Source of the DNA: Planktothricoides sp. SR001
GTDB lineage: Bacteria > Cyanobacteriota > Cyanobacteriia > Cyanobacteriales > Laspinemataceae
NCBI RefSeq assembly: GCF_001276715.1
Contig: NZ_LIUQ01000009.1
Coordinates: 1 to 32,625, forward strand
Direction of reading: 5' to 3'
Length of the DNA: 32,625 nt
Below, in pieces: positions 7,665 through 20,660 of this stretch (position 1 is its first letter; each line of letters begins with the position of its first letter). The position numbers were made by a program, and so were the translations under genes. The notes under the pieces were generated by a model that was given only the letters and a program-made list of their open reading frames with translations, searched no databases and was not told the origin of the DNA.

Positions 7665-7725
7665 GGAGATAATTTGCAATGGGAAAATAGGCGATCGCAC
7701 TAAACCCTACAACTACAACTAAACC

Positions 7726-10700
7726 CTAAAAAGCTAAGTCATCCTCAACCATTTTATCCCCGATTTCTTGATAAGCATATTCACAAATTTCTGCATAGGG
7801 ACAAATCTGACAATTGCTTGGCCAAGCATGGGCGCGATAATCTCCTTGTAAAATTTTTTGCACAATATTTTTCACTTCATCACCAACGGCTTGGAAATAG
7901 TCACGGGGATAAGTGAAAAGCTTGGGTTCTCTTAAGTAAGCAATGTGGGCTTGGGGGCGTTCCGTTGCTGCCGCATAAACCCATAATTGGCAGCGATGTA
8001 AATGAGGTTCGATGATTTGGTCTGTTTTATAATCTAAAACAAAATCATCACCTAATAAATCAATCACCCCATTAAAAGTAATGCTATCTATTTTGAAAGT
8101 AATCTTGGTTTCTTTGCTAATGTTTCCTTGGCGATAGGGGGCATAGTCTGGGTATTCATCCCAAGCTTGCACCAGAGATAATATTTCTTGGATTTGTGCC
8201 GGGAATAAGCTAGAGTTAAATCGAGATAAAGTTTCCGGGTTTCTGATGTTATTTTCCAAAGCTTTATGGACTAAAATGCCAATTTTTTGAGCGATCGCCA
8301 TCCCTTCTCCTGTCCCTGGGTGTCCATCAATATAGCGAAATTTAAACCGTTTAGGACAGCGAGTATATTCACTCAAAGCTGTCACCGGCAATTCAAATAA
8401 TCCCGAACCAACAAAACCGATAATTTCTGGACGATCGCCCTCTAGTAAAGGGGGTAATGGCGGTTCGGGGGCGAATAAATCCTCGGCGGTTAAAGGAATT
8501 TTTTCTACAGAAATATTCGCCGCATTCAGTCCCGGACGCAGCAAATCTAACAAACTGCCTTTCTCACTAGCTGCGGTTAAAATTAGGCGATCGCGACTCC
8601 GAGTAAAAGCCACATAAAGCAACCGCAAAGCTTCAGCATCTTCTCGTTGTTTCTGTAAATTTTCCAGCCAAACGTAAAGGACTGGCTTTTGTTTTTCTCC
8701 TTCCTCATTAGACAAGGAAACTGCCACACCCCACGCAGGGTCAAAATACACCGATGGCGAATAATTGGGTTTACTTCTGGTTAAATCAGGCACTATTACC
8801 ACCGGCCATTCTAAACCTTTAGCTGCATGAATCGTCATTAAAGTAACGGCATTTTCTGCCTCCAAAGGTAGCCGGGTAATTTTCACATCAGCGGCGGCAA
8901 TTTGTCGTAACCGTCGCACCACATTAAATACATCATTATTTCCCGTTTCTAATTGTCGCACAAGTTCCATAAAACCTCGCCAGTCTGCCAGCCGACGGGG
9001 TGCTCCTGGTAGGTTATTAATCACTGCTGTATATCCGGTTAAACGGTCAGCAATTTGCAGTAAACGGGTGGGCGGTTCTACGGTGCGATCGCCTAAAAGT
9101 TGCTTTAATATTTCTACGGCAGAGAAACCGGGTTTCTCCAAGAAACCCGGTTTCTGTTCCATCTGAATTTTTTCCCACCAAGAAAGGTTTTTTCCCTCAA
9201 CGGTTAACAGAGAACGACTAATCATAAATAAGGTGCGATCGCTAATAGCAAAAAATGGGCTCCGTAACACCGCCACCAAAGCAATATCATCCGTAGGATC
9301 CGCCAAAAATCTTAATAAAGCCCAAGCATCTTTTGCTTCCCTAGTATCTAACAAATTGCCGCCCCCGGACAACACCACGGGAATGCCCTCACTTGCCAAA
9401 GTTTCCCCATACAATTCTAACGGATCCCAAGTGCGAGAAAGAATCGCCATATCTCCCGGTTTCACCGGACGCAAACCGCCTGTTTTTTTGTCATAAACAG
9501 GCATTTTTTGCTCTAACATTTGTTTAAGCGTTCGGGCAATATGCCGACCTTCTGCCTGACGGCAACGGTTAATATCATTTACCTCTCCAGCGGCAACAGT
9601 ATAAGCCTCTAAATAAGTATTAACATCTGGATTAATATCATTAACATATGGGGCTTCTGTGCGAAAAGCCGTTAAATTTTGGTGCAAATTTCCCAATAGC
9701 GGCGCAAAGATGTGATTAATCTGGTTAATCAAGCTTTCATGGGTGCGAAAACTGGTAGAAAGTTCCACAATTTCGCCACCTTTTCCTCTTTTACCTGAAT
9801 CATGCTGAATGCGATCGCACCAGCTTTGAAACACCGCCACATCGGCCCGTCGAAACCCATAAATTGACTGTTTAGCATCGCCCACAATAGTCAATATTGC
9901 CTTAGAATTTAGCAACTCTAAAAATTCTCCTTGGACGGGGTTAGTATCTTGGAATTCATCCACTAAAAAAGCTTGCCACCGTTGCCAATAATACTCTTGA
10001 ACTTCGGGATGACTCAGGGCTTTTAGGGCATAGACTTCTAAATCCGCAAAATCTAATAATCGGGCTTTTCGTTTAGCCGCTGCTAAAAACTCCCGCACTT
10101 GCATAAATGCCTGCTTGAGGATGGGCAAAATAGCGGTTAATTTATGGTCAAATTCGCCAATGTCTAGATTAATCCTGCCTCGCTTGATTTCTTTGTCTGC
10201 CAATTTTTTTAGAGTAGCGATCGCCTCTTTAATTTCCGTAAATCCCCCATCTGGCCATTTTTTCTTACTGCCTCCCTGCAAATTAATCTTGGTTAGATTT
10301 TCCAAAGCGTTTGTTGGTTCACTATTTTCTTTTAAACTATTGACTGCCTGAATCGCAGTTTTCCGGGCTAATTCTATGCGATCGCCTTCAAGTCCTGCAA
10401 ACTGGTGTAAAGTTTCTGTTGCCAATTGCCATTGGGAATTGCCCAACAATTCACTCAGGGCAAATTGCTGCATTTGGGCAATTAAATGTTCTGGATTAAT
10501 TGACCGATTAAAAGCTCGTTCAGCGGCGATTGGATCGGCAATTAAATGGGGTAAAATTTCCCCCAATTGACTATAAAAAATTTCTTGATAAATCTCGGCA
10601 GGTAATTCTGTCAAAGCCAAAATTAATTGCTGATTAAGCCAAATTTTACTTTCCAACTCATCCAATACGGTAAAATCAGCGGGAACCCCTGCCGCTTCCG

Positions 10701-11010
10701 GGTGTTCCTGACAAATTCGGGTGGCTAAAGAGTGGAGGGTACTAATTTGGGCTGCTTCCAATTCAGCTAACAAGTCAAAGCGATCGGGCAGTCTTTGAGA
10801 AACCGTTGCCCGAATGCGCGATCGCAGTTCGGCTGCTGCCTTATCCGTAAACGTACAAGCCACAATTTCCAAAGGGGAAAACCCGTCAACAGTGAGGTGA
10901 TAAAAATAGCGTTCTGCCAGCATATAAGTTTTCCCTGTACCAGCACCAGCAATCACCGCTACACTACCAGAAGAATAGGCTGCTTTTTCTTGTTCCGTCG
11001 TTAAAGTCAT
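7726..11010 (-). CDS. UvrD/AddA-type ATP-dependent helicase with C-terminal PD-(D/E)XK nuclease
   Basis: About 1094 residues from the ATG at 11010 (MTLTTEQEKAAY); the 17 codons upstream lack family features. Helicase motifs run in order: AGAGTGKT at 21-28, FLVDEFQDTNPVQ near 350, IVGDAKQSIYGFRRADV just after, LMTIHAAKGLEWP near 725 and LLYVAFTRSRDRL near 800. The nuclease domain has VLDYKTDQ near 990. Four cysteines (one in YTRCPKRFKFRY near 884, then CQICPYAEIC near the end) fit the iron-sulfur-bound nuclease of AddB-type proteins. The likely role is end resection in double-strand-break repair. No AddB or RecC partner is nearby. Residues about 618-629 (QKPGFLEKPGF) come from a palindromic repeat pair inserted in frame. 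Confidence 0.88.
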   Translation of the reverse strand: MTLTTEQEKAAYSSGSVAVIAGAGTGKTYMLAERYFYHLTVDGFSPLEIVACTFTDKAAAELRSRIRATVSQRLPDRFDLLAELEAAQISTLHSLATRICQEHPEAAGVPADFTVLDELESKIWLNQQLILALTELPAEIYQEIFYSQLGEILPHLIADPIAAERAFNRSINPEHLIAQMQQFALSELLGNSQWQLATETLHQFAGLEGDRIELARKTAIQAVNSLKENSEPTNALENLTKINLQGGSKKKWPDGGFTEIKEAIATLKKLADKEIKRGRINLDIGEFDHKLTAILPILKQAFMQVREFLAAAKRKARLLDFADLEVYALKALSHPEVQEYYWQRWQAFLVDEFQDTNPVQGEFLELLNSKAILTIVGDAKQSIYGFRRADVAVFQSWCDRIQHDSGKRGKGGEIVELSTSFRTHESLINQINHIFAPLLGNLHQNLTAFRTEAPYVNDINPDVNTYLEAYTVAAGEVNDINRCRQAEGRHIARTLKQMLEQKMPVYDKKTGGLRPVKPGDMAILSRTWDPLELYGETLASEGIPVVLSGGGNLLDTREAKDAWALLRFLADPTDDIALVAVLRSPFFAISDRTLFMISRSLLTVEGKNLSWWEKIQMEQKPGFLEKPGFSAVEILKQLLGDRTVEPPTRLLQIADRLTGYTAVINNLPGAPRRLADWRGFMELVRQLETGNNDVFNVVRRLRQIAAADVKITRLPLEAENAVTLMTIHAAKGLEWPVVIVPDLTRSKPNYSPSVYFDPAWGVAVSLSNEEGEKQKPVLYVWLENLQKQREDAEALRLLYVAFTRSRDRLILTAASEKGSLLDLLRPGLNAANISVEKIPLTAEDLFAPEPPLPPLLEGDRPEIIGFVGSGLFELPVTALSEYTRCPKRFKFRYIDGHPGTGEGMAIAQKIGILVHKALENNIRNPETLSRFNSSLFPAQIQEILSLVQAWDEYPDYAPYRQGNISKETKITFKIDSITFNGVIDLLGDDFVLDYKTDQIIEPHLHRCQLWVYAAATERPQAHIAYLREPKLFTYPRDYFQAVGDEVKNIVQKILQGDYRAHAWPSNCQICPYAEICEYAYQEIGDKMVEDDLAF
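9122..9156. repeat. AGAAACCSGGTTTCT pair inside the helicase-nuclease gene
   Basis: Copies at 9123-9137 and 9141-9155 with mirrored centres, the same arrangement as the non-coding pair at 5700-5732. They are translated on the minus strand as QKPGFLEKPGFS without breaking the frame. Confidence 0.88.
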
Positions 11011-11220
11011 AATGCCAAAAATAATTGAACCGAACCATCGGCAGGCGATCGCCATTGGCAATTAAGCCGATTCTCTAGCATTCTACCATTCTGTAATCCT
11101 GGAACCAATCCTGGAACCATAAGTAATTTTTGAAGATTTCGTGAAATTAGTCAAACTAAATTCTTTTTTGGTAATTTTTATGGTATATTACATAATTAAG
11201 AAAAAATCAAAATAACCTCA

Positions 11221-12561
11221 ATGACAACTGAATTTAACTTTTTTCAAAATTGGTATCCGATTTCCCCCCTTGAAGACCTAGAATATGACCGACCTACTAC
11301 CGTAACGATTTTGGGCAAATCCTTGGTAATTTGGCAATCCCCGGTATCTAAAAAATATCAAGTATTTTTAGATGAATGTCCCCATCGTTTAGCCCCCTTA
11401 AGTGAAGGCAGAATCGAACCGAAAACCGGAAATTTAATGTGTAGCTATCATGGCTGGGAATTTGATGCCGATGGCACTTGTCAGCGGATTCCCCAAGCGG
11501 AAAATCCCGACTTAGTGAGTAAAAATAAAACAAATTTTTGTGCCCGCAAATTTCCCACCCAAGAAGCGAATGAATTACTCTGGGTTTGGCTGGATCCGAA
11601 ATCAGAGGAGTTAGCCGCCAAAACCCCGCTACCTTTATCACCGCAAATTGATGCCGAAAAAGGGTTTGTTTGGTCTTCAATCGTGCGAGATTTAGAATAT
11701 GATTGGCAGACATTGATCGAAAATGTCGCCGACCCCAGTCATGTGCCTTTTGCTCATCATGGGGTACAAGGCGATCGCGAAAAAGCCGAACCCTTACCCA
11801 TCACCATCAGCCAATCAAATGCCCAAATCATCGAAGCGAAAATTGACCGAAAATTTAAAAGCACAATTACCTTTCAACCTCCTTGTCATTTAGAATATCA
11901 AATTTCCTTGGGTGCGGATAAACAAATAGGATTAATCACCTATTGTATTCCCGTTTCTCCAGGCAAGTCGAGAATAGTCGCGCAGTTTTCTCGGAATTTT
12001 GCCCAAAACTTACACCGGATCACCCCGCGATGGTGGGATCATCTACAAAATCGCAACTTAATATTAGACGGAGACATGGTTTTCCTCCATTATCAAGAGC
12101 GAATATTACAACAAAAACAACAAACCCAAACTTGGAAAACCGCCTACAAAATGCCCACATCGGCGGACAAATTAATTATTGAATTTCGCAATTGGTTTGA
12201 TAAATATTCTGGGGGTAAATTGCCGTGGCAGGAAGTAGGAATAAACCCGCCAGATATTTTGTCAATTTTGCCAATGACTCAAAACCGACAACAAATACTC
12301 GATCGCTATCATCAACATACCCAACATTGCAGCAGTTGTCGGGGGGCATTAAAAACCGTGCAACGGTGGCAAATCTTTTTGCTGGTTTACTTTATCCTCA
12401 CAATTGCTACAGTTGCACTGCTGCCAGATGCCCTCAGACTGCCCTGGGGTCTGCCTTTAACCTTAACCGCACTCCTCGGTATGGGGGTCTACGGTGGACT
12501 CAAATTTTGGCTAGAACCGAAATTTTACTTTGTTGATTATATCCACGCATTCAAAAAGTAA
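11221..12561 (+). CDS. Membrane Rieske oxygenase, pheophorbide a oxygenase-like
   Basis: A 446-residue Rieske non-heme iron oxygenase. [2Fe-2S] ligands: Cys53 and His55 (CPHRLAPL), Cys74 and His77 (CSYHGWEF). The mononuclear iron site is NVADPSHVPFAHHG, with Asp171, His174 and His179. Near the C-terminus, Cys370-Ser-Ser-Cys373 matches the CxxC redox motif of PaO/Tic55-type enzymes, followed by two membrane helices (about 384-402 and 408-430). These features place it in the pheophorbide a oxygenase/LLS1-like group, which in plants acts in chlorophyll breakdown; substrates of cyanobacterial members are mostly undefined. It is divergent from the helicase gene with a 210 bp gap. No ribosome site is evident. 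Confidence 0.85.
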   Translation: MTTEFNFFQNWYPISPLEDLEYDRPTTVTILGKSLVIWQSPVSKKYQVFLDECPHRLAPLSEGRIEPKTGNLMCSYHGWEFDADGTCQRIPQAENPDLVSKNKTNFCARKFPTQEANELLWVWLDPKSEELAAKTPLPLSPQIDAEKGFVWSSIVRDLEYDWQTLIENVADPSHVPFAHHGVQGDREKAEPLPITISQSNAQIIEAKIDRKFKSTITFQPPCHLEYQISLGADKQIGLITYCIPVSPGKSRIVAQFSRNFAQNLHRITPRWWDHLQNRNLILDGDMVFLHYQERILQQKQQTQTWKTAYKMPTSADKLIIEFRNWFDKYSGGKLPWQEVGINPPDILSILPMTQNRQQILDRYHQHTQHCSSCRGALKTVQRWQIFLLVYFILTIATVALLPDALRLPWGLPLTLTALLGMGVYGGLKFWLEPKFYFVDYIHAFKK

Positions 12562-12876
12562 TCTTGAGTCTGTATAAGTCTGTATGTCAACCCGCAATGG
12601 GTGACTTCTGTCCGGGGAAGTGAAACCTGGTGGGCTAAAATTAACACTGGCAATTCAGCCTGAACATAAGGCGAAAGTAAGGTGGGCAATGCCCACCTTA
12701 CTTAGTCGATCGGGGTCATCCACAGAAATCTTAAGAAATCTTAAGTAATTTTCCTAATACAGTTTAACCACTAGACAAATGACTACCTAATGTGTTGCTA
12801 CATCTGACCGCTTAATGTCTGACTCCGGTTTCCAGGGAACTTGCCTAAAACCGATTGGTTCACGAGAAATAACTAA
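12562..12876. other. Intergenic stretch with one strong hairpin
   Basis: Apart from the 11 bp inverted repeat at 12677-12701 and a doubled AAGAAATCTT near 12728, no gene or RNA is recognised. The response-regulator promoter should lie in the second half or further downstream, toward its likely start at 13066. Confidence 0.4.
12677..12701. repeat. GTAAGGTGGGC-AAT-GCCCACCTTAC hairpin
   Basis: A perfect 11 bp inverted repeat with a 3-base loop, 116 bp after the Rieske gene. No T run follows on either strand, so it looks more like a dispersed repeat than an intrinsic terminator. Confidence 0.75.
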
Positions 12877-13065
12877 ATGTGCGGTCTACCGTCGATAAAT
12901 GATGTAATAGTCATAATCCTGGTTGACCAAGAAAGTACCATATTGCCCACCAAGAACCAGACGCTTCAGTGCAAGACATTTTGCTTTGTCCTGCATGACA
13001 AAGATGCTGATTTTTGCCTGATGGATTGCCCAAACTCAAAGATTCGTGAGTTAATAGTTAATTGT

Positions 13066-14016
13066 ATGATGAATAACTCAATTCCAGAGCTAGAAAATAT
13101 TATTACTCAGTTGAAAAGCCTACAACGACGTAACAAAGCCAAAATGCTGGTGGTGGATGACGAACCAGATAACCTGGATCTACTCTACCGCACTTTCCGA
13201 CGGGACTATCAGGTACTCAAAGCCGAAAGTGGCACCCGCGCTTTAGAATTATTGCGCGAAGAGGGTGAAGTGGCCGTGATTATTTCTGACCAACGAATGC
13301 CGGAAATGAAAGGGACGGAGTTCTTAAGTAGAACGGTGCCTGATTTTCCCAATACAGTGCGGATTATTCTAACTGGGTTTACGGATATTGAAGACCTGGT
13401 AGATGCGATTAACTCCGGTCAGGTTTATAAATATATTACGAAACCTTGGGATCCGAATGAACTGAAAACGGTGGTGCATCGTGCCGCAGAAACTTATAAA
13501 GTGCTCAAAGATCGCACGGAAGAATTGCGGCGGGCTGAAGCGCAAACCAACCTCCTATCAATTATTTTGAATTTATCTCAAGAGGCTAATTCTTTAGAGG
13601 ATTGTTTGAAACCGATCGCCGTCGCCTTTGGGGAAAATTTTGCCGCTGATGTTTGTCTTTTGCAACTGGTGGAAAATAATCGCTTAATCCCCAGTCAAGG
13701 GGTATTTTCTAAAGTCGGCATTGAGGAAAACTGGTTAGAACATGACCCGTTAACCGCAGCGGCGATCGCCACCAGAACCTTGCAAGGATCTGTTCATGTA
13801 GAAAAAGATAGCAACCTTGCCGAGGACGAACATTATCAAAAATCTGGGACACAAGCTCATTTGGTCATGCCAATTACTTACCGGGATGAACTTCTAGCAG
13901 TCTTGTCTCTTCAGTGGAAGCAACCCTTTACCCTGCGAGAAGATGAAGTGTCTACAATCCATTTGTGCGCTAGGCAAGTGGGTGTCACCCTGACCTGTGT
14001 CCGCTATCATCCTTAA
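13066..14016 (+). CDS. Response regulator, receiver domain plus GAF domain
   Basis: 316 residues from the ATG at 13066; the frame is open from 12877, but the extra 63 residues are Cys-rich and unlike the family. Receiver domain at about 25-145: acidic pair Asp31-Asp32 (VVDDEPDN), phospho-acceptor Asp75 (IISDQRMPEMKG), Thr103 (LTGFTD) and Lys126 (YITKPWD). A short coiled linker (TEELRRAEAQ) leads to a GAF domain at about 165-312. There is no DNA-binding, HD-GYP, GGDEF or kinase output domain; the protein ends with the GAF domain, so it may act by protein contact or ligand binding. No cognate histidine kinase is adjacent. The start is uncertain because the ribosome site is weak. Confidence 0.8.
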   Translation: MMNNSIPELENIITQLKSLQRRNKAKMLVVDDEPDNLDLLYRTFRRDYQVLKAESGTRALELLREEGEVAVIISDQRMPEMKGTEFLSRTVPDFPNTVRIILTGFTDIEDLVDAINSGQVYKYITKPWDPNELKTVVHRAAETYKVLKDRTEELRRAEAQTNLLSIILNLSQEANSLEDCLKPIAVAFGENFAADVCLLQLVENNRLIPSQGVFSKVGIEENWLEHDPLTAAAIATRTLQGSVHVEKDSNLAEDEHYQKSGTQAHLVMPITYRDELLAVLSLQWKQPFTLREDEVSTIHLCARQVGVTLTCVRYHP

Positions 14017-14075
14017 GGTTGATCTGATGGATTCTCTATAATTTTTCTGCCCCCTGAATTACTCTTATTTTACAG

Positions 14076-14810
14076 ATGTCTACTGTTTCTAAACCTCCTA
14101 TATCTTTATCCAATCAAATGGTTCCTTCTGCCAGCGAAATTCAACAGATATTTAATCGCATCGCCCCAGTTTACGATCAATTCAATGACTGGCTGAGTCT
14201 GGGTCAGCATCGGATTTGGAAGCGGATGACTATTGCCTGGAGTGAAGTCAGTCCTGGAGATATTTGTTTGGATCTGTGCTGTGGCAGTGGGGATTTAACT
14301 CTGCTTCTCGCGGAAGAAGTAGGAAAAACAGGTCAAGTCTTTGGGGTAGACTTTTCTGTAGAATTGCTGAATCAAGCGCGTCAACGTCCGGGAAAACAAG
14401 AGGTCATCACCTGGGTAGAAGGGGATGCCTTGGATTTACCTTTTCCTGACGAATATTTTGACTGTGCCACCATTGGTTATGGTTTACGCAATGTTAAAGA
14501 TATTCCCCGTTGTTTAAGCGAATTGCATCGAGTGCTTAAACCCGGTGCCAAAGCCGCGATTTTGGACTTTCATCGCCCCAGTAATGCGATCGCCCGTGAG
14601 TTTCAGCACTGGTATTTAGATCATATTGTCGTACCCTTAGCCAAAGCCAACGGATTATATAATGAATATGCTTACATTTTTCCCAGTTTAGATCGATTTC
14701 CCATTGGCAAAGAGCAAGTTGAGTTAGCGCGAGCGGCTGGATTTGCTGCCGCCACTCACTATCCTATTGCCCAAGGAATAATGGGAGTATTAGTTGTGAA
14801 TAAAGTTTAA
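14076..14810 (+). CDS. menG: Demethylphylloquinone / demethylmenaquinone methyltransferase (UbiE/MenG family)
   Basis: A 244-residue class I SAM-dependent methyltransferase. It has the UbiE/MenG signature: IFNRIAPVYDQFNDWLSLGQHRIWKR at 25-50, SAM motif LDLCCGSGDLT at 65-75, ATIGYGLRNVKDIPRCLSE in the middle, and LKPGAKAAILDFHRPS. In cyanobacteria this enzyme performs the last methylation of phylloquinone, the secondary electron acceptor of photosystem I. Length is normal for the family. It stands alone, 59 bp after the response regulator on the same strand, with no quinone genes alongside. The ATG at 14076 starts a Ser/Thr/Pro-rich tail of about 20 residues seen in other cyanobacterial copies. 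Confidence 0.92.
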   Translation: MSTVSKPPISLSNQMVPSASEIQQIFNRIAPVYDQFNDWLSLGQHRIWKRMTIAWSEVSPGDICLDLCCGSGDLTLLLAEEVGKTGQVFGVDFSVELLNQARQRPGKQEVITWVEGDALDLPFPDEYFDCATIGYGLRNVKDIPRCLSELHRVLKPGAKAAILDFHRPSNAIAREFQHWYLDHIVVPLAKANGLYNEYAYIFPSLDRFPIGKEQVELARAAGFAAATHYPIAQGIMGVLVVNKV

Positions 14811-14813
14811 TCT

Positions 14814-15010
14814 TTAGTGCTTGGTTGTTGGTGGCCCCTCTTTGAAGGGGGGGGGTTGGGGGCTTGTTAGTGGTTGATTGTTGATTGTTGGTGGTTGATT
14901 GTTGATTGTTGAAGCAGCAGGACATGGACTTTCACCTTGTCTCTACGGAGATCACCGTCTTCTTATCTCCCCCTGCCCCCTGCCCCCTGCCCCCTACAGC
15001 CTACACCCTC
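14814..15010. repeat. Repeat-rich gap: T/G tract, C-run/G-run repeat, TGCCCCC and CCTACA repeats
   Basis: Following menG there are TTGGTTGTTGGTGG, the C-run/G-run repeat at 14835-14863 (related to 1455-1492), several GATTGTTG units and, near 14969-15020, CCCCTGC and CCTACACCC repeats. Short open frames here are repeat translation only. Confidence 0.7.
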
Positions 15011-15079
15011 TCCCCTACAGCCTACACCTGGAAAAAAACACCTCTTTGCGAATACGATTAAAGGAGATTAGATTGCGCT

Positions 15080-16249
15080 ATGTTTCAGATTCTTGATTCT
15101 ACTCTCAGAGAAGGAGAGCAAACCCCAGGAGTTTATTTTTCCCCGGAAACAAAGTTGTTAATTGCTCAATATCTAGATCGAATTGGCATCGATATTATTG
15201 AAGTCGGAAATCCTGCTGTTAGCCCGGAAATTTCTGAAGCGATCGCCTTAGTTGCCCAGGCAAAATTAAATGCGAAAATTGGCGCCCACTCTCTTTGTCG
15301 CATCGATCACGTTCAAAAAGCATTGGATTGTGGCATAGATTTTTTAGGCATCTTCTTTAGTGTCGCCAAACACCGTTTAGAGCGAGACTACCATATTACT
15401 TTTGACCAAGCCCTTGAGCAAATTGTCGAAGTAATTCGCTATGCCAAAGCCCAAAATCCCAACCTGTTGATTCGCTATACCCCTGAAGATGCAACCCGCA
15501 CCGAAATCGAACAGGTGATTGAAGTAGCCACGGCGGCAGTCCAAGCTGGTGCAGATATTATTAGCATTGCCGACACAACGGGATACGCAACTCCGTTTCA
15601 ACCCGATCGCAGTTACGCCTATTTTGTCAAAACTTTAAAGCAAAAACTAGCGGATCTTCAGCTATTTCCTAAAATTGCCGTTCATTGTCACAATGACCGA
15701 GGTTTAGCCCTCGCCAATGCCCTTGATGCTTACAAAGCTGGCGCCGATATTATCGATGTCAGTGTTATCGGTTTGGGAGAACGTGCGGGGATTGTTGATT
15801 TGGCAACTTTATTAGTCAACTTAGTTGAAATGGGGGAATCAAAACGGCGTTGGGAGTTTAAATATCTTCAAGAACTCTATCATCTGGTGAGTCAAGCTTC
15901 CCGGATTTCAATTCCGCCTCTTTTCCCGATTATGGGAAAAAATGCCTTCACTCACTATGCCGGGGTTCATGTCACAGCGATCGCCAAGGATCCGATGCTT
16001 TATCAAAGTCTCAACCTGGAGAGTTTGGCTCATCAAAATAAATTAGCCTTAGGAATGCAATCTGGTCGAAATTCAATTGAATTAGCTCTCAAGCAAATTG
16101 GCAAAGAGGAAATGATCGAGAATGAAAGTCTAATTAAGTCAATTCTAAAAGAGGTGAAATTTTTAGCTAAACAAGGAACTTTGATTGATATTCATAATGA
16201 ATTTATCAACCTAGTTAATCGATGTGTTGCTATAGAAAATTTTGAATAA
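15080..16249 (+). CDS. Homocitrate synthase-like DRE-TIM metallolyase
   Basis: A 389-residue member of the isopropylmalate/homocitrate synthase family, which condenses acetyl-CoA with a 2-oxo acid. The TIM-barrel start is LDSTLREGEQTPGV with Arg10 catalytic and Glu11 a likely metal ligand; RYTPEDATR lies near 132-140, IADTTGYATP near 163-172 and HCHNDRG with His202/His204 as metal ligands. LREGEQ (Glu, not Asp) and GERAGI (Ile where isopropylmalate synthases have Asn) resemble the lysine-pathway type of homocitrate synthase more than NifV or LeuA. A short C-terminal helical part is present, but no LeuA regulatory domain. No nif or lysine genes are near. An exporter, a P-loop protein and a lactonase follow on the same strand. 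The 2-oxo acid substrate cannot be read from sequence. Confidence 0.82.
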   Translation: MFQILDSTLREGEQTPGVYFSPETKLLIAQYLDRIGIDIIEVGNPAVSPEISEAIALVAQAKLNAKIGAHSLCRIDHVQKALDCGIDFLGIFFSVAKHRLERDYHITFDQALEQIVEVIRYAKAQNPNLLIRYTPEDATRTEIEQVIEVATAAVQAGADIISIADTTGYATPFQPDRSYAYFVKTLKQKLADLQLFPKIAVHCHNDRGLALANALDAYKAGADIIDVSVIGLGERAGIVDLATLLVNLVEMGESKRRWEFKYLQELYHLVSQASRISIPPLFPIMGKNAFTHYAGVHVTAIAKDPMLYQSLNLESLAHQNKLALGMQSGRNSIELALKQIGKEEMIENESLIKSILKEVKFLAKQGTLIDIHNEFINLVNRCVAIENFE

Positions 16250-16333
16250 TATTGGTCAGCATTCACCCTTATGGTTTGGGTTGCTAAAACCATAGAAATA
16301 TTGTCTTTGAGGAGCCTCTAGGTTTGACGTTAA

Positions 16334-17332
16334 ATGATCTCTAACCCATCAATATCCATCCTATTTAACAGATTTAAAATTAACTCCCCAGGTTCGATAT
16401 TTTCACTGTTCCTGGCTTTAATCGCCTTGTCTTTTGCCGCAATCTTGATTAAACTATGCGAACAAGAAATGAGCGCGATTGGCACCGTGTTTAACCGTTT
16501 ATGGATGGCATCGATCTTACTAGGAGGCTGGGATTGGATCGCTCAAATGGGCGATCGCACCCCCGAATCCGATCTGCCCGGGCTAACCCTGACTACCCAG
16601 CCCCAAACAATCCCTAATTTTCGGGAAATTGCGCTTTTATTTCTAGTGGGAATTATCGGCACGGCTTCGGTCTTATGTTGGGCTTGGTCATTAACTCAAA
16701 CGAGCGTGGCAAACTCAACCCTGATGCGGAATTTATCGCCCTTATTTACTTGTATTCTCGGTGGGATATTCTTACAACAGCAGTTTGAAATTCGCCTGAT
16801 CGGTGGTCTGTTTTTAGGCATATTTGGCGCATCACTGATTGGCATGAATGACATCCAAATTGGACTAGAATATCTCTGGGGAGATGGGTTGGGTCTATTA
16901 GCCGCATTGTTTTATGCCTTAAATCTGTCTATCCTAGAATATTTACGCCCCAAATTTTCAGCGGTGAAATTGTTATTTTGGCGCTGCACGATTGGCGCGA
17001 TCGCTTTGTTGCCGCTGATTTGGCTAACCCAAGACAGTTTTTTTCCCCATTCTTGGCGCGGATGGGCTACCGTATTTATCTTAGCCAGTCTTTGTCAATG
17101 CTTTGGTCAATGTATGTTGATTCATAACCTCAAGTATTTTTCTTCCACCTTTATTGCGATTTTCTTACTCCTTGAACCAACCCTGACAGCAATTTTTGCC
17201 TGGGTGATTTTTGGCGAAACCTTAAGTGGGTTAAATTCCTTGGGATTTGTGATTATTTTGAGCGGCATATTTCTGGCAAAAACTAGCCAAAGCTCCCATA
17301 AAAAAATTTTAATCGAGGAAAAAACAACATGA
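16334..17332 (+). CDS. EamA-family (DMT) transporter, probable exporter
   Basis: A 332-residue membrane protein with two EamA halves and about ten hydrophobic helices. The first half includes FAAILIKLCEQEMSAIGTVFNRLWMA and TSVANSTLMRNLSPLFTCILGG; the second includes LAALFYALNLSILEYLRP and LLLEPTLTAIFAWVIFGETLSG, the typical helix-9 pattern. DMT proteins mostly move amino acids, organic acids or nucleotide sugars across the inner membrane. It starts 84 bp after the homocitrate-synthase-like gene, and its stop overlaps the next start as ATGA, so it is co-expressed with the P-loop gene. GAGGAG is about 20 bases upstream of the ATG, farther than usual, and an in-frame stop just before the ATG excludes a longer protein. 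Substrate is presumably the cluster product, by inference. Confidence 0.85.
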   Translation: MISNPSISILFNRFKINSPGSIFSLFLALIALSFAAILIKLCEQEMSAIGTVFNRLWMASILLGGWDWIAQMGDRTPESDLPGLTLTTQPQTIPNFREIALLFLVGIIGTASVLCWAWSLTQTSVANSTLMRNLSPLFTCILGGIFLQQQFEIRLIGGLFLGIFGASLIGMNDIQIGLEYLWGDGLGLLAALFYALNLSILEYLRPKFSAVKLLFWRCTIGAIALLPLIWLTQDSFFPHSWRGWATVFILASLCQCFGQCMLIHNLKYFSSTFIAIFLLLEPTLTAIFAWVIFGETLSGLNSLGFVIILSGIFLAKTSQSSHKKILIEEKTT

Positions 17333-18183
17333 TGCAATTAAACCAAAATCAAACGGAGTCGATAGAGTTAATCCCTGGAATTGGATTTGGATTCTCCGCC
17401 GTTGATGGCTGGCTTCCCCTGGTGGAACAACCCTTGCTGATTTTAGTTGGCTTGACGGGAGTCGGCAAAAGTACCTTGGTCAAGGCTTTATCGGATACCC
17501 AGTTAAACTTTACCCTGTTGCCTAACCGTCGAACTTTAACCGATCGATTTATCATTCCCACCGTGAGACAAATCGATGGAGTGGTCACGGACGACGATCT
17601 CACCTGCCGTGTGACACGCTTCTCTTATACCCGTCGCTATAAGCAACTCTTTCCCGAAGGAATGGTCTATGTTTTAAGTCAATTACAAATCAACCCGGAG
17701 CGACTCTGCTTTCCGCTACTCTTTGATGGTTTGCGCGGAAAGCTGGAGGTAAAATATGCCAGTGAACTTCTGCCAAATTCTCAATTTATCGTGTTAGAAG
17801 CGCCGAATTCGGTTCGCTTGGAACGTCTGTTAACTCGTCAAGATTCCTTTGATCGCATTGGACAATCTAGCCCGATCGCCTGTAACAATGATACTCAGAA
17901 AATTAGCAGTTTGGCCGAATTAGGATTGCCCGAAGCGGTGAATTTCTTCTCACCGGAAGAAACCACCAGGATTTTAACTCAAATTAATCAAGGAGACTAC
18001 TCGATCGCCGAGGTGCGCGATCGCCTAAAAATTATCGTGGAAGAACAAAAAAACTACGATCCCTTAGCGGCGCGATCGGTCTTAGAACTCCTGCCGACCC
18101 ACCGCACTCTATTTATTGATACAACGCTTAATAGTCCTGAGTCCATCGCCCAAAAAATTAAGTCCTCATTCCTGGCTAATTAA
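17329..18183 (+). CDS. P-loop NTPase / small-molecule kinase-like protein, function unknown
   Basis: 284 residues from ATG 17329 (ATG 17332 is an alternative). Walker A GLTGVGKST at 41-49 follows a hydrophobic strand LLILV. An Arg-rich strand FTLLPNRRTLTDRFIIP (61-77) and DDDLTCRVTRFSYTRRYKQ (88-105) could bind phosphate. LCFPLLFDGLRGKLEV (126-141) may provide the Walker B-like Asp133. IVLEAPNSVRLERLLTRQDSFDRIG (154-178) looks like the LID region of nucleoside-monophosphate-kinase-type enzymes. The fold suggests phosphate transfer to a small molecule, but no known kinase matches. It overlaps the transporter gene by ATGA, showing translational coupling, and precedes the lactonase gene by 34 bp. 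The function is not known to me. Confidence 0.7.
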   Translation: MMQLNQNQTESIELIPGIGFGFSAVDGWLPLVEQPLLILVGLTGVGKSTLVKALSDTQLNFTLLPNRRTLTDRFIIPTVRQIDGVVTDDDLTCRVTRFSYTRRYKQLFPEGMVYVLSQLQINPERLCFPLLFDGLRGKLEVKYASELLPNSQFIVLEAPNSVRLERLLTRQDSFDRIGQSSPIACNNDTQKISSLAELGLPEAVNFFSPEETTRILTQINQGDYSIAEVRDRLKIIVEEQKNYDPLAARSVLELLPTHRTLFIDTTLNSPESIAQKIKSSFLAN

Positions 18184-18217
18184 CCCAACCCTGAATTAAG
18201 GTAAAATAAGGTAAAAG

Positions 18218-19264
18218 ATGATTTTCATCCCTAAACTAGCCCTTGGCTTCCTGTGGCTATTCACTATTTTAGTTGCCCTCCCTACTCCGGTTCTGGCCAA
18301 CAATTTGGCAGACATTATCAATGAGGGCGATCGGGTAGAACAGGTAGTCACAGGTTTTGCGTTTACAGAAGGCCCCGTTTGGCACGATGGTGGTTTTTTA
18401 CTATTTAGTGATATTCCCGCTAATACTATCTATCAATTGTGGACGGGCGATCGCGTTAGGTTGGGTTTCGTTCCTCAACCCAACCTAAGCAATAATTTTT
18501 TTGTCGCTCAACCCGATCAACAAGTAGAGTTAAAAGTATTTCGTCATCCTTCTGGAAATGCCAATGGCAACACTTTAAATCGGCAGGGTAGCTTGCTAAG
18601 TGCTGAATATGCTAACCGTCGGATCTCCTTGACCCAGAAAGATGGTACAATGATTACATTGACCGATCGCTATCAAGGAAAATATCTCAATAGCCCCAAT
18701 GACTTAGTAGTTAAATCCGATGGCAGTATCTACTTTACTGACCCTAACTACAGCCCTAAATTTATCCAGCATTACCATCTGCAAAAACATTCTCAAGAAC
18801 TGGAATTCTATGGGGTCTATCGGCTCACCCCGGATGGTAAATTGACGCTTCTATGCCGGGAATTCCTACATCCCAATGGGATTGCCTTTTCTCCAGATGA
18901 AACAAAATTGTACATCAGTGATTTCCAAAAATCTCACATTCGCGTCTTTGATGTGAAGCCAGACGGCACCCTAACCAACGGACATATTTTTGCCCAACTC
19001 AATCCATCTAGTCAAATCGGAGGGCCAGATGGGATAAAAGTAGATCGGCGAGGAAATGTTTATTGTACTGGACCAGAAGGAGTGTCCATTTTCTCCCCGG
19101 CAGGGGATTTTATGGGTCTGATTCAAGTACCAGAAGTTCCGAGTAATTTAGCCTTTGGAGACAGTGACTATCAAACCCTTTACATCACCGCAAAAACCAG
19201 CATTTACCGGATTCATCTCAAAATCCCAGGATCCGCAGTAACCGGGACCATCCCATATTTGTAG
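18218..19264 (+). CDS. Secreted SMP-30/gluconolactonase-family hydrolase
   Basis: A 348-residue six-bladed propeller of the SMP-30/gluconolactonase family. Signal peptide 1-28 (hydrophobic 5-21, cleavage near VLA). Family marks: FTEGPVW with metal ligand Glu51, LNSPNDLVVKSDGSIYFTDPNYS near 157-178, HPNGIAFSPDETKLYISDF near 219-238 and GGPDGIKVDRRGNVYCTG near 268-285. Members hydrolyse lactones with a divalent metal. Residues about 80-90 (RLGFVPQPNL) are encoded by a 12 bp inverted repeat that looks inserted in frame. The stop TAG (19262-19264) is part of a GTAGGGGCGAAGC repeat, so the last residues may not be original. As last gene of the cluster it could open a lactone of the exported product; homocitrate itself forms a lactone. 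Confidence 0.82.
   Translation: MIFIPKLALGFLWLFTILVALPTPVLANNLADIINEGDRVEQVVTGFAFTEGPVWHDGGFLLFSDIPANTIYQLWTGDRVRLGFVPQPNLSNNFFVAQPDQQVELKVFRHPSGNANGNTLNRQGSLLSAEYANRRISLTQKDGTMITLTDRYQGKYLNSPNDLVVKSDGSIYFTDPNYSPKFIQHYHLQKHSQELEFYGVYRLTPDGKLTLLCREFLHPNGIAFSPDETKLYISDFQKSHIRVFDVKPDGTLTNGHIFAQLNPSSQIGGPDGIKVDRRGNVYCTGPEGVSIFSPAGDFMGLIQVPEVPSNLAFGDSDYQTLYITAKTSIYRIHLKIPGSAVTGTIPYL
18456..18488. repeat. TTAGGTTGGGTT hairpin repeat inside the lactonase gene
   Basis: TTAGGTTGGGTT (18456-18467) and AACCCAACCTAA (18477-18488) are perfect complements around a 9-base loop. The form matches a dispersed cyanobacterial hairpin repeat known to me from other genomes. It is translated without breaking the frame. 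Confidence 0.8.
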
Positions 19265-19337
19265 GGGCGAAGCATTCGCGTAGATAATTTTTCGGTTTTT
19301 TGGGATAAATTTATCCGCGAATGCGTTCATCCCCTAC
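19261..19337. repeat. GTAGGGGCGAAGCATTCGCG inverted-repeat element at the lactonase stop
   Basis: The left arm at 19261-19280 and the right arm CGCGAATGCGTTCATCCCCTAC (19316-19337, with mismatches) enclose about 35 bp. The left arm contains the lactonase stop codon. It belongs to the same family as 7431-7664. Confidence 0.75.
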
Positions 19338-19430
19338 GGGCTGATTTACCAAAATGGGATGCTCCCGCAGTAACCCCCAAGGGGGTTTGAAGACCAAACT
19401 TCTACTTGATCCCTGCCTCTTGCTCGATCA

Positions 19431-20660
19431 ATGAATTTATCTAACTTATTTATTTATATTGGCCCGCCCATTGCCGGTGGCATTATTGGCTATTTCACCA
19501 ATGATATCGCCATTCAAATGTTATTTCGTCCCTATCGAGCGATTTACATTGGTGATCGGCGGCTGCCATTTACTCCCGGACTAATTCCGCGAAATCAAGA
19601 ACGTCTAGCTAAACGAATTTCTGATACCATTATGGGGTCTTTGTTAACCCCGGAAGAATTGCAAAACCTGGCACGGCGTTTGCTGCAAACCGAACGCATG
19701 GAAGGGGCAATTCACTGGCTATTGCGGATGGCAATGGATCAGATTAAGTCCGATACAGAAGCCAAAACCGCGCAAATTTTGGCGGGAATTCTCCATGATT
19801 TTCTCGGCCAATCTTTGCCAAGAATGTTAAAGGTTTTAGCCAAAGATGAAAGCTTTTTACAAGAACAACTCGATCAAATTTTTGACCAAGTTTTATTAGA
19901 AATTCAACTCAATCGCGCCCAAGCCCATCAACTAGCCAATTGGCTGTTAGATGTGGTATTGCCCCCAGATGTAATTCGGCAAGTGTTGGTCGATTTCTTG
20001 ACTGATCGCAACATTCACACCATTGATGAAGGATTTCGCGAACAAAGTAGTGGCACCTATTGGGTCGTAGCCAACCTGATTGGATTACGCAGTACCTTGA
20101 TGCGGTTACGCACCTTTTGTTTAGATGAAAAAGAAAAGTCAAACGATCGCATTCGGGATTTAATTGTTGCCCTGGAACTGCGCGATCGCCTAGAAGAATG
20201 GTTTCAAACCCTTTCCCTGCAAAATCTGCCCTTATCCACCGTCAAACAATTGCGGAAAACCATCCGCGATAGTGTCCGCAACTACCTGCAAACTAGCGGC
20301 ACGGATTTATTATTAGGCTTAAGTAACTCAATTGATTGGCAAAAAGTATCTAGTTTAATCTTAACTCGCTTACAAAAATCCGCAGTGGTCAGTAAATCCC
20401 TCGGATTAGTCAGTCACGAACTAGCCCTGATTTTAGAAAGATATCTAGAACGGGACTTAGAAAATTTAGTGGCCAAAGCCATCCCCATTTTAAACATCGA
20501 TCAAGTAATTATCAATCGGGTGAAAGCCACCTCTCCCGAAGAATTAGAAAATGCCATCAATGGCATTGTCAAAAGTGAATTACAGGCGATCGTTAATCTA
20601 GGAGGAGTGTTAGGTCTGATTGTCGGTTGTATGCAAACTATTATTCTGCTTTTACAATAA
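19431..20660 (+). CDS. DUF445 family membrane-anchored protein
   Basis: A 409-residue DUF445 (YheB-like) protein. A hydrophobic N-terminal segment at 8-31 contains the conserved [20 protein letters not shown], followed by [25 protein letters not shown], the strongest family signature. A long helical middle (about 60-385) with repeated charged helices leads to a C-terminal membrane helix at about 389-408 ([19 protein letters not shown]). Both ends are membrane-associated and the body probably lies on one side as a coiled helical domain. The biochemical role of this family is not established. The gene is separated from the lactonase by a repeat element and has no visible ribosome site; a convergent gene follows. 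Confidence 0.88.

Follow-up and report, generated by a model that had tools for sequence, protein, structure and literature searches.

What does a cyanobacterium do with an enzyme of the homocitrate synthase type when neither a nitrogenase nor a dedicated homoaconitase is found in its genome? The question is raised by four adjoining genes at positions 15,080 to 19,264 of a 32,625-nucleotide stretch of Planktothricoides sp. SR001 (assembly GCF_001276715.1, contig NZ_LIUQ01000009.1, positions 1 to 32,625), hereafter the window. Judged from the sequences, the four genes might form a module for the production and export of homocitrate with a partner kinase, a reading whose chances we put at about even. 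An earlier interpretation of the same DNA, made without database searches (the sequence-only reading), had proposed that the cluster makes, phosphorylates or activates, exports and processes a small acid or lactone. It is borne out in part, by the lineage of the synthase, the conservation of the genes and the exporter; the link to the lactonase comes out weaker, and the proposed phosphorylation or activation and the compound itself are still conjectural.

All four open reading frames (ORFs) lie on the forward strand, where the sequence-only reading had placed them, with gaps of 84, -4 and 34 base pairs (bp). The start of the third gene overlaps the stop of the second as ATGA.

15080..16249, + strand: HCS, a LysS-lineage homocitrate-synthase-type enzyme of 389 amino acids (aa); PF00682 and PF22617 (HCS_D2) over the cut-off, tree clade, substrate residues
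16334..17332, + strand: EamA/DMT-type membrane transporter, probable exporter (332 aa); two EamA stretches, hydrophobic segments, neighbourhood
17329..18183, + strand: KIN, a P-loop small-molecule-kinase-like protein (284 aa); AAA_18, predicted model, conserved Arg-rich motifs
18218..19264, + strand: SMP-30/gluconolactonase-type protein (348 aa), probably exported; SGL domain, hydrophobic N-terminal segment

All Pfam matches scored over their cut-offs (HMGL-like 213.7 bits, HCS_D2 44.6, EamA 129.4, AAA_18 P-loop 39.0, SGL/SMP-30 150.4). The domain scans covered the four cassette proteins and four flanking proteins (11221-12561, 12877-14016, 14076-14810 and 19431-20660). No nif, lys or leu genes were present among the flanking four, in line with the sequence-only reading, which had seen none nearby. 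Below, G-numbers denote cyanobacterial genomes and L-numbers loci; G000 is the window genome (99.46 % complete).

Lineage and predicted substrate of the synthase

A tree of 101 proteins placed the 18 cyanobacterial HCS proteins in one group (support 99). Its sister group consisted of 33 LysS-like proteins (98; joined branch 99) from Ignavibacteriota, Calditrichota, Woesearchaeota and others, and NifV (n=14, 98) and LeuA (n=14, 96) were placed apart. A first enzyme that groups with NifV or LeuA would have spoken against the sequence-only reading, and no such grouping occurred. The tree was built by a quick method and left out one outlier (L072), rows shorter than 280 aa and duplicates; long rows, among them those of G029, G111, G214, L124 and L153, are unsurely placed in it.

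The closest relatives outside the HCS clade are thus LysS-type enzymes, known from the LysW/aminoadipate lysine pathway (L028, L030; solved structures 6ktq and 2ztj), with 47-54 % identity over the 33 rows. Surroundings were inspected for seven of the 33 sister loci, and neighbours were tested for two. L030 is accompanied by homoaconitase-family and LysX genes and L028 by a [LysW]-aminoadipate kinase, all over NCBIfam cut-offs, and these two LysS-like sisters sit in LysW-type lysine operons. No such operon was seen when the surroundings of a further sister locus, L049, were read. The window enzyme differs from the LysS systems in belonging to a cyanobacterial clade of its own and in having an exporter and KIN beside it; homoaconitase, LysX, LysZ and LysJ were absent among the neighbours scanned.

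The five substrate-selecting positions compared here come from passages of one paper (PMC12961565). It gives His, Arg, Thr, Ser and His for homocitrate synthases, L, E, S, N and E for isopropylmalate synthases (IPMS), and A73, D157, A159, M186 and S242 for HphA. Four of the five positions of the window enzyme (H70, R132, T134 and S162) match the homocitrate synthase residues. The mapping of the columns is supported by the LeuA of G000, which reads L, E, S, N, E and so reproduces the published IPMS row. Three LysS-like rows that were compared carry the same substrate residues as HCS. By tree and residues, HCS is an enzyme of the LysS lineage with mostly 2-oxoglutarate-type residues, and what we claim for it is this lineage and a likely homocitrate synthase activity, not the status of a TIGR02146 equivalog.

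Other identities were rejected. NifV shares the predicted product and the superfamily with HCS but forms a separate tree group, and in two NifV rows substrate positions one to four are W, A or S, G and R; NifV identity is ruled out by tree, residues and score (255.8 bits against the TIGR02660 cut-off of 462.9). LeuA is ruled out in the same way (216.1 against 598.7 bits, TIGR00973), and CimA by tree and residues, with one CimA-like row (L003 of G000) in the comparison. HphA, the first enzyme of homophenylalanine/homotyrosine synthesis, has the superfamily and the cyanobacterial host in common with HCS. It is ruled out by residues alone, H, R, T, S, D against Ala, Asp, Ala, Met, Ser in the published comparison; the tree held no confirmed HphA, and the G068 protein taken for one (L153) matches two of the five HphA residues. 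The three PF00682 genes of G000 are accordingly a LeuA-like gene, a CimA-like gene and the window HCS, named by tree and residues.

Two related proteins were noted besides. L124 (G092:C6:330510-331658), about 50 kilobases (kb) from the cassette of that genome, is a further NifV-like protein (326 bits, 427-aa frame) with a long tree branch and altered residues. L022:6913-8328 of G111 is a 471-aa homocitrate-synthase-like protein; on reading, its extra C-terminal stretch looks cupin-like, and its neighbours resemble an alpha/beta hydrolase and two ThiF-like genes.

Recurrence, partners and mobility of the cassette

The set is not peculiar to this strain, as would have spoken against the sequence-only reading. 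All four genes occur in the same order in G092 (identities 79, 71, 73 and 68 %), and three of them in G068 (HCS-EamA-KIN) and, rearranged, in G159 and G308 (EamA-KIN-HCS, gaps of 2 and 11 bp). In two Moorena loci HCS is followed by KIN after 50 bp. Of 386 cyanobacterial genomes, 15 carry a gene of the HCS clade (E <= 1e-75), and HCS matches turned up in 8 of 119 relatives (E <= 1e-50), counting G000 itself, the G004 fragment and a distant G111 protein. These samples share some genomes and cover part of the phylum, and in the 386-genome draws only six (KIN) and four (HCS) first-look candidates were scored per genome.

An exporter is a frequent neighbour of HCS, as the sequence-only reading would have it. 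Intact exporter genes lie in the run at 12 of the 18 clade loci, five of them EamA and seven of the DHA2-type MFS. The window protein has paired EamA domains over the cut-off, which places it in the EamA/DMT family, and eight strongly hydrophobic segments in a crude scan. Its relatives of at least 61 % identity occur in five of 30 genomes searched, always inside the HCS run, and the next best match is 46 %. The MFS gene lies directly 3' of HCS on the same strand (25-403 bp) in G070, G174, G176, G179, G320 and G455, and 1207 bp away with one ORF between in G102; G159 and G308 retain a 158-aa piece of it. The MFS class was assigned by the G102 protein, which is over the NCBIfam TIGR00711 cut-off, the others being grouped with it by BLAST.

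Searched for alone, KIN was found in 6 of the 119 relatives and 7 of the 386 genomes, three of them shared, i.e. in ten genomes. In five (G000, G068, G092, G159 and G308) it lies inside the HCS run. In G029 a distance of 198 bp separates it from another kind of synthase, with 33 % identity to HCS, and in G214 broken KIN pieces end 6 bp from a third kind of synthase (32 %), near NifW and NifX-associated genes. KIN therefore lies no more than one gene away from a synthase of the 2-oxoglutarate type in seven of the ten genomes (window clade five, G029 type one, G214 type one). At substrate positions one to three, the synthases of G029 and G214 have His, Arg and either Thr or Ser; both fall outside the HCS/LysS-like group, on long branches of unsure placement. 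Given three to five such genes in about 5,000, chance adjacency within one gene is roughly expected in one genome in several hundred, and because it is so rare, the association with three synthase lineages is hard to ascribe to chance. KIN is tied to 2-oxoglutarate-type synthases of three distant lineages. The G214 locus (L094:7274-9300) is noteworthy in itself: its homocitrate synthase reaches 413.5 of 413.55 bits (TIGR02146) and lies with the broken KIN where a nif cluster ends (NifX-associated, NifW, MoeB/ThiF-like, IscA-family, ferredoxin), and the genome has a NifV over the cut-off as well.

The KIN protein appears to be a member of an uncharacterised P-loop family with a kinase-like fold. 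AAA_18 matches ten of ten aligned members at E <= 0.01, and the predicted model has a pLDDT of 86. Its matches in the PDB are all weak: tyrosylprotein sulfotransferases and an AdkA-like protein come first by E-value, followed by adenylate, gluconate and dephospho-CoA kinases, and the best match in shape among those shown is a dephospho-CoA kinase (TM 0.47/0.62). Weak matches, in sequence (E 0.004) as well as in structure, suggest that KIN shares the P-loop kinase fold with UPF0200/AdkA-like proteins and dephospho-CoA/gluconate kinases, but it is about 100 residues longer and has conserved motifs of its own. Among the invariant positions are the P-loop and R67, R68, R94, R97, R136, R163, R166 and R170; these arginines would suit a polyanionic substrate. 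Family-model scans gave no named family beyond generic P-loop models. No match to KIN was found on plasmids, none of 18 pattern matches on viral contigs was confirmed, and PHROGs yielded nothing beyond a short P-loop match with guanylate kinase.

The fourth protein falls well within the SMP-30/gluconolactonase family (SGL cut-off 26.3 bits), and its nearest solved structures are putative or exported gluconolactonases (3e5z, 3dr2). Residues 1-19 form a hydrophobic segment. Among the 30 genomes searched, relatives of 74-75 % identity occur only in G092 and G004, adjoining KIN or its remnant. Compared by eye with the G092 and G004 proteins, the G000 lactonase has an in-frame insertion, inside which lies a 27-base palindrome. 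Among 165 loci, exact copies of this palindrome occur only in the G000 loci L073, L082 and L155, all covering this site.

The surroundings of the cassette show how it may have arrived:

14833..19430, no strand: cassette segment missing from the congener G001 (blastn of the window against G001 locus L163)
14076..14810, + strand: left flank, UbiE/MenG-type methyltransferase, outside the unit (NCBIfam NF001244 over cut-off; adjoins the DUF445 gene in G001 and G004)
19431..20660, + strand: right flank, DUF445 membrane protein, outside the unit (PF04286; adjoins UbiE in G001 and G004)
18459..18485, no strand: 27-base palindromic repeat, lying in the in-frame insertion that the lactonase gene carries (a single exact copy in the window)

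The congener G001 matches the window from 7725 to 14832 in pieces of 90-93 % identity, and the match resumes at 19431 (92 %, then 85 %). The 4.6 kb between have no counterpart there, where about 0.2 kb separates the UbiE gene from the DUF445 gene; the two also adjoin in G004, of the same family. On another contig, G004 has a decayed set made up of remnants of HCS (residues 14-190) and KIN (144-282) and of a lactonase matching in two pieces. In G092 the intact cassette is on contig C6 and the DUF445 gene on C4. These three arrangements are explained more simply by an insertion in the lineage of the window. Since the congener lacks exactly the cassette between its flanks, the cassette is a movable unit, moved and kept together. 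Neither a transposase nor clear flanking repeats were seen as its mover, and the cassette ends show simple repeats only.

Fate of the product and competing explanations

The pathway that we propose is drawn from gene content, lineage and residues. HCS would condense 2-oxoglutarate and acetyl-CoA to homocitrate, which its family and most of its active-site residues make probable. Homocitrate or a close derivative would be the end product, because no dedicated homoaconitase and no nitrogenase were found in G000. No nifH match reached the cut-off in this genome; the best scored 220 of 394 bits and is presumably ChlL, the relative from chlorophyll synthesis. Two aconitase-family genes were found in G000 at E <= 1e-30, both on other contigs; their products of 479 and 901 aa fit LeuC- and AcnB-like proteins by length. 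G092 likewise has only two such genes at this threshold, LeuC- and AcnB-like by length. The aminoadipate lysine pathway was ruled out for G000 in the absence of a dedicated homoaconitase at E <= 1e-30, a level at which no AcnB-like gene came up in some genomes, so that distant members can escape. The acid or its derivative would then leave the cell through EamA, or through the DHA2-type MFS in related loci, a step that the recurrent neighbourhood makes somewhat probable. KIN, linked by gene neighbourhood, would act on homocitrate, on an activated form of it or on the synthase; that it modifies the acid is conceivable, at slightly less than an even chance. The weakest step, which we consider doubtful, would be the opening of homocitrate lactone beyond the inner membrane by the SMP-30 protein, itself probably exported.

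Several findings weigh against this production and export module. At the fifth substrate position HCS has D226, where the published table has His for homocitrate synthases; Asp is also found there in the three LysS-like rows compared and in the Thermus enzyme 2ztj. HCS scores 325.9 bits against the TIGR02146 equivalog cut-off of 413.55. This model may be too narrow here, because the LysW-operon protein L028 fails it too (345.0 bits). A third first-look aconitase candidate exists in G000, not reaching E 1e-30, and a side activity of LeuCD or AcnB could carry homocitrate further. Exporters are not nearby at six of the 18 clade loci (G066, G186, G306, G380 and both Moorena loci), nor is KIN at 11 of the 18. 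The KIN genes of G016 and G337 have no adjacent synthase, and both genomes have NifV elsewhere. The synthases beside KIN in G029 and G214 depart at the fourth substrate position (Cys, Gly), KIN itself is broken in G214, and the decayed HCS and KIN pieces of G004 lie about 29 kb apart on one contig. Upstream regulation does not help either. A search for NtcA-type sites (GTAN8TAC) in the 400 bp upstream of 16 clade genes, with G159 and G308 left out, gave none for 14, the window, G092 and Moorena genes included, two in G102 (-31, -21) and one in G186 (-346); with sites in only two of 16, common regulation is unsupported. Finally, intact runs that include the lactonase are limited to G000 and G092, and its paralogues, 53-67 % identical, lie outside the cassette in G001, G004, G092, G111 and G174.

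These last points lead to the alternative that survives best, in which only HCS, exporter and KIN form the unit and the lactonase travels along without relation to them, as perhaps even the exporter does. It has a reasonable chance, though we lean against it. The run has no lactonase in G068, G159, G308 or either Moorena locus, SMP-30 paralogues exist apart from the cluster, and the G000 gene carries a repeat-derived insertion. On the other hand, the lactonase adjoins KIN in G000, G092 and the decayed G004 set, and its close relatives were confined to G092 and G004 among the 30 genomes. The membership that the sequence-only reading gave to the lactonase is weakened: the gene stands beside the others in two genomes only, apart from the decayed G004 set, and its family occurs without the cluster. 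It may be a later addition to the module.

Nitrogen fixation is the next candidate. Among the 16 G-numbered clade genomes, nine have nifH and ten have NifV over the cut-off; seven, the window genome included, lack nifH at E <= 1e-80, a threshold at which a nifH split by an excision element could escape. G068, G186, G306 and G320 keep NifV over the cut-off without a nifH match, a pattern that reflects either nif loss or an element-interrupted nifH. Three nitrogen fixers, G066, G159 and G308, are without NifV over the cut-off. G066 has a 430-aa frame at 155 bits as its NifV match, and its window-type HCS and nifH (G066:C6:701545-702708 and 723331-724146) are 21 kb apart. In G159 and G308, whose HCS and KIN are full-length, the NifV match is short: a 305-aa frame with 403.7 bits in the one (G159:C1:2227861-2228691) and a 321-aa frame with 411.3 bits in the other (G308:C1:2632264-2633193), both below the cut-off. 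In these three genomes the window-type enzyme may serve nitrogenase or have replaced NifV.

Extended to the cassette as a whole, the synthase would stand in for NifV, and the cassette would be a remnant of, or an accessory to, nitrogen fixation. The nifH count, the three fixers and the broken KIN of G214, beside another homocitrate synthase and NifW and NifX-associated genes, favour this view. We nevertheless consider it unlikely, with no nifH match in the seven genomes at that threshold, NifV also present in ten of the 16, and exporters that cofactor supply would not call for.

A similarly low chance is given to the view that HCS takes the first step of a 2-oxo-acid chain elongation (to 2-oxoadipate/2-aminoadipate or longer), continued by LeuCD- and LeuB-like enzymes elsewhere, for a natural product or a lysine-like compound. 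The tested sister loci belong to the aminoadipate lysine route, and an extra aconitase-family gene of 583-585 aa occurs in G066, G068 and G306, as well as, at 592 aa, in G001, which has no HCS. Against it, G000 and G092 each have only the LeuC- and AcnB-like genes at E <= 1e-30, and the run contains no such genes; an extra LeuB-type dehydrogenase was not searched for.

Least likely of these, HCS might make citrate from oxaloacetate in the manner of a Re-citrate synthase, or serve as an overflow sink for 2-oxoglutarate and acetyl-CoA with the surplus acid exported: Re-citrate and homocitrate synthases are one family, exporters recur beside HCS and the title of one reference names 2-oxoglutarate as a nitrogen-starvation signal, but four of the five window residues fit the 2-oxoglutarate pattern, and the window, G092 and Moorena genes lack an upstream NtcA-type site.

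A possible further role for homocitrate

Homocitrate is known from two roles, in lysine synthesis and in the nitrogenase cofactor. Each protein of the cassette belongs to a known superfamily. The literature searched held neither their combination, nor a LysS-lineage enzyme in a cyanobacterium in which genes for nitrogenase and homoaconitase were looked for and not found, nor the kinase-synthase link. Among the papers listed, no title or opening of an abstract dealt with a set of homocitrate synthase, exporter and kinase, or with Moorena and homocitrate, with most subscription journals outside the search.

Legume hosts are reported to supply homocitrate to NifV-lacking rhizobia (PMC8073898, PMC6934396). 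There, as proposed here, the maker is without nitrogenase, but the enzyme and the setting are those of a plant. Because this supply is known, cross-feeding of homocitrate by cassette carriers is possible by analogy, but no more than that. More specifically, non-nitrogen-fixing cyanobacteria might make homocitrate, modify it by KIN and release the acid, its lactone or a phosphorylated derivative to serve as a public good or an exchange currency, for example for NifV-less diazotrophs in their mats; we hold this to be very unlikely. On this reading KIN would, to our knowledge, be the first kinase devoted to an acid of the homocitrate type.

The three nitrogen fixers G066, G159 and G308 raise the question of whether NifV was replaced by the window-type enzyme. 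The cassette also names a candidate partner kinase family, and a simple metabolite to seek in cyanobacterial mats. If true, a module that makes and exports homocitrate would add a third role for this acid, in a cyanobacterium where neither of the known roles was found.

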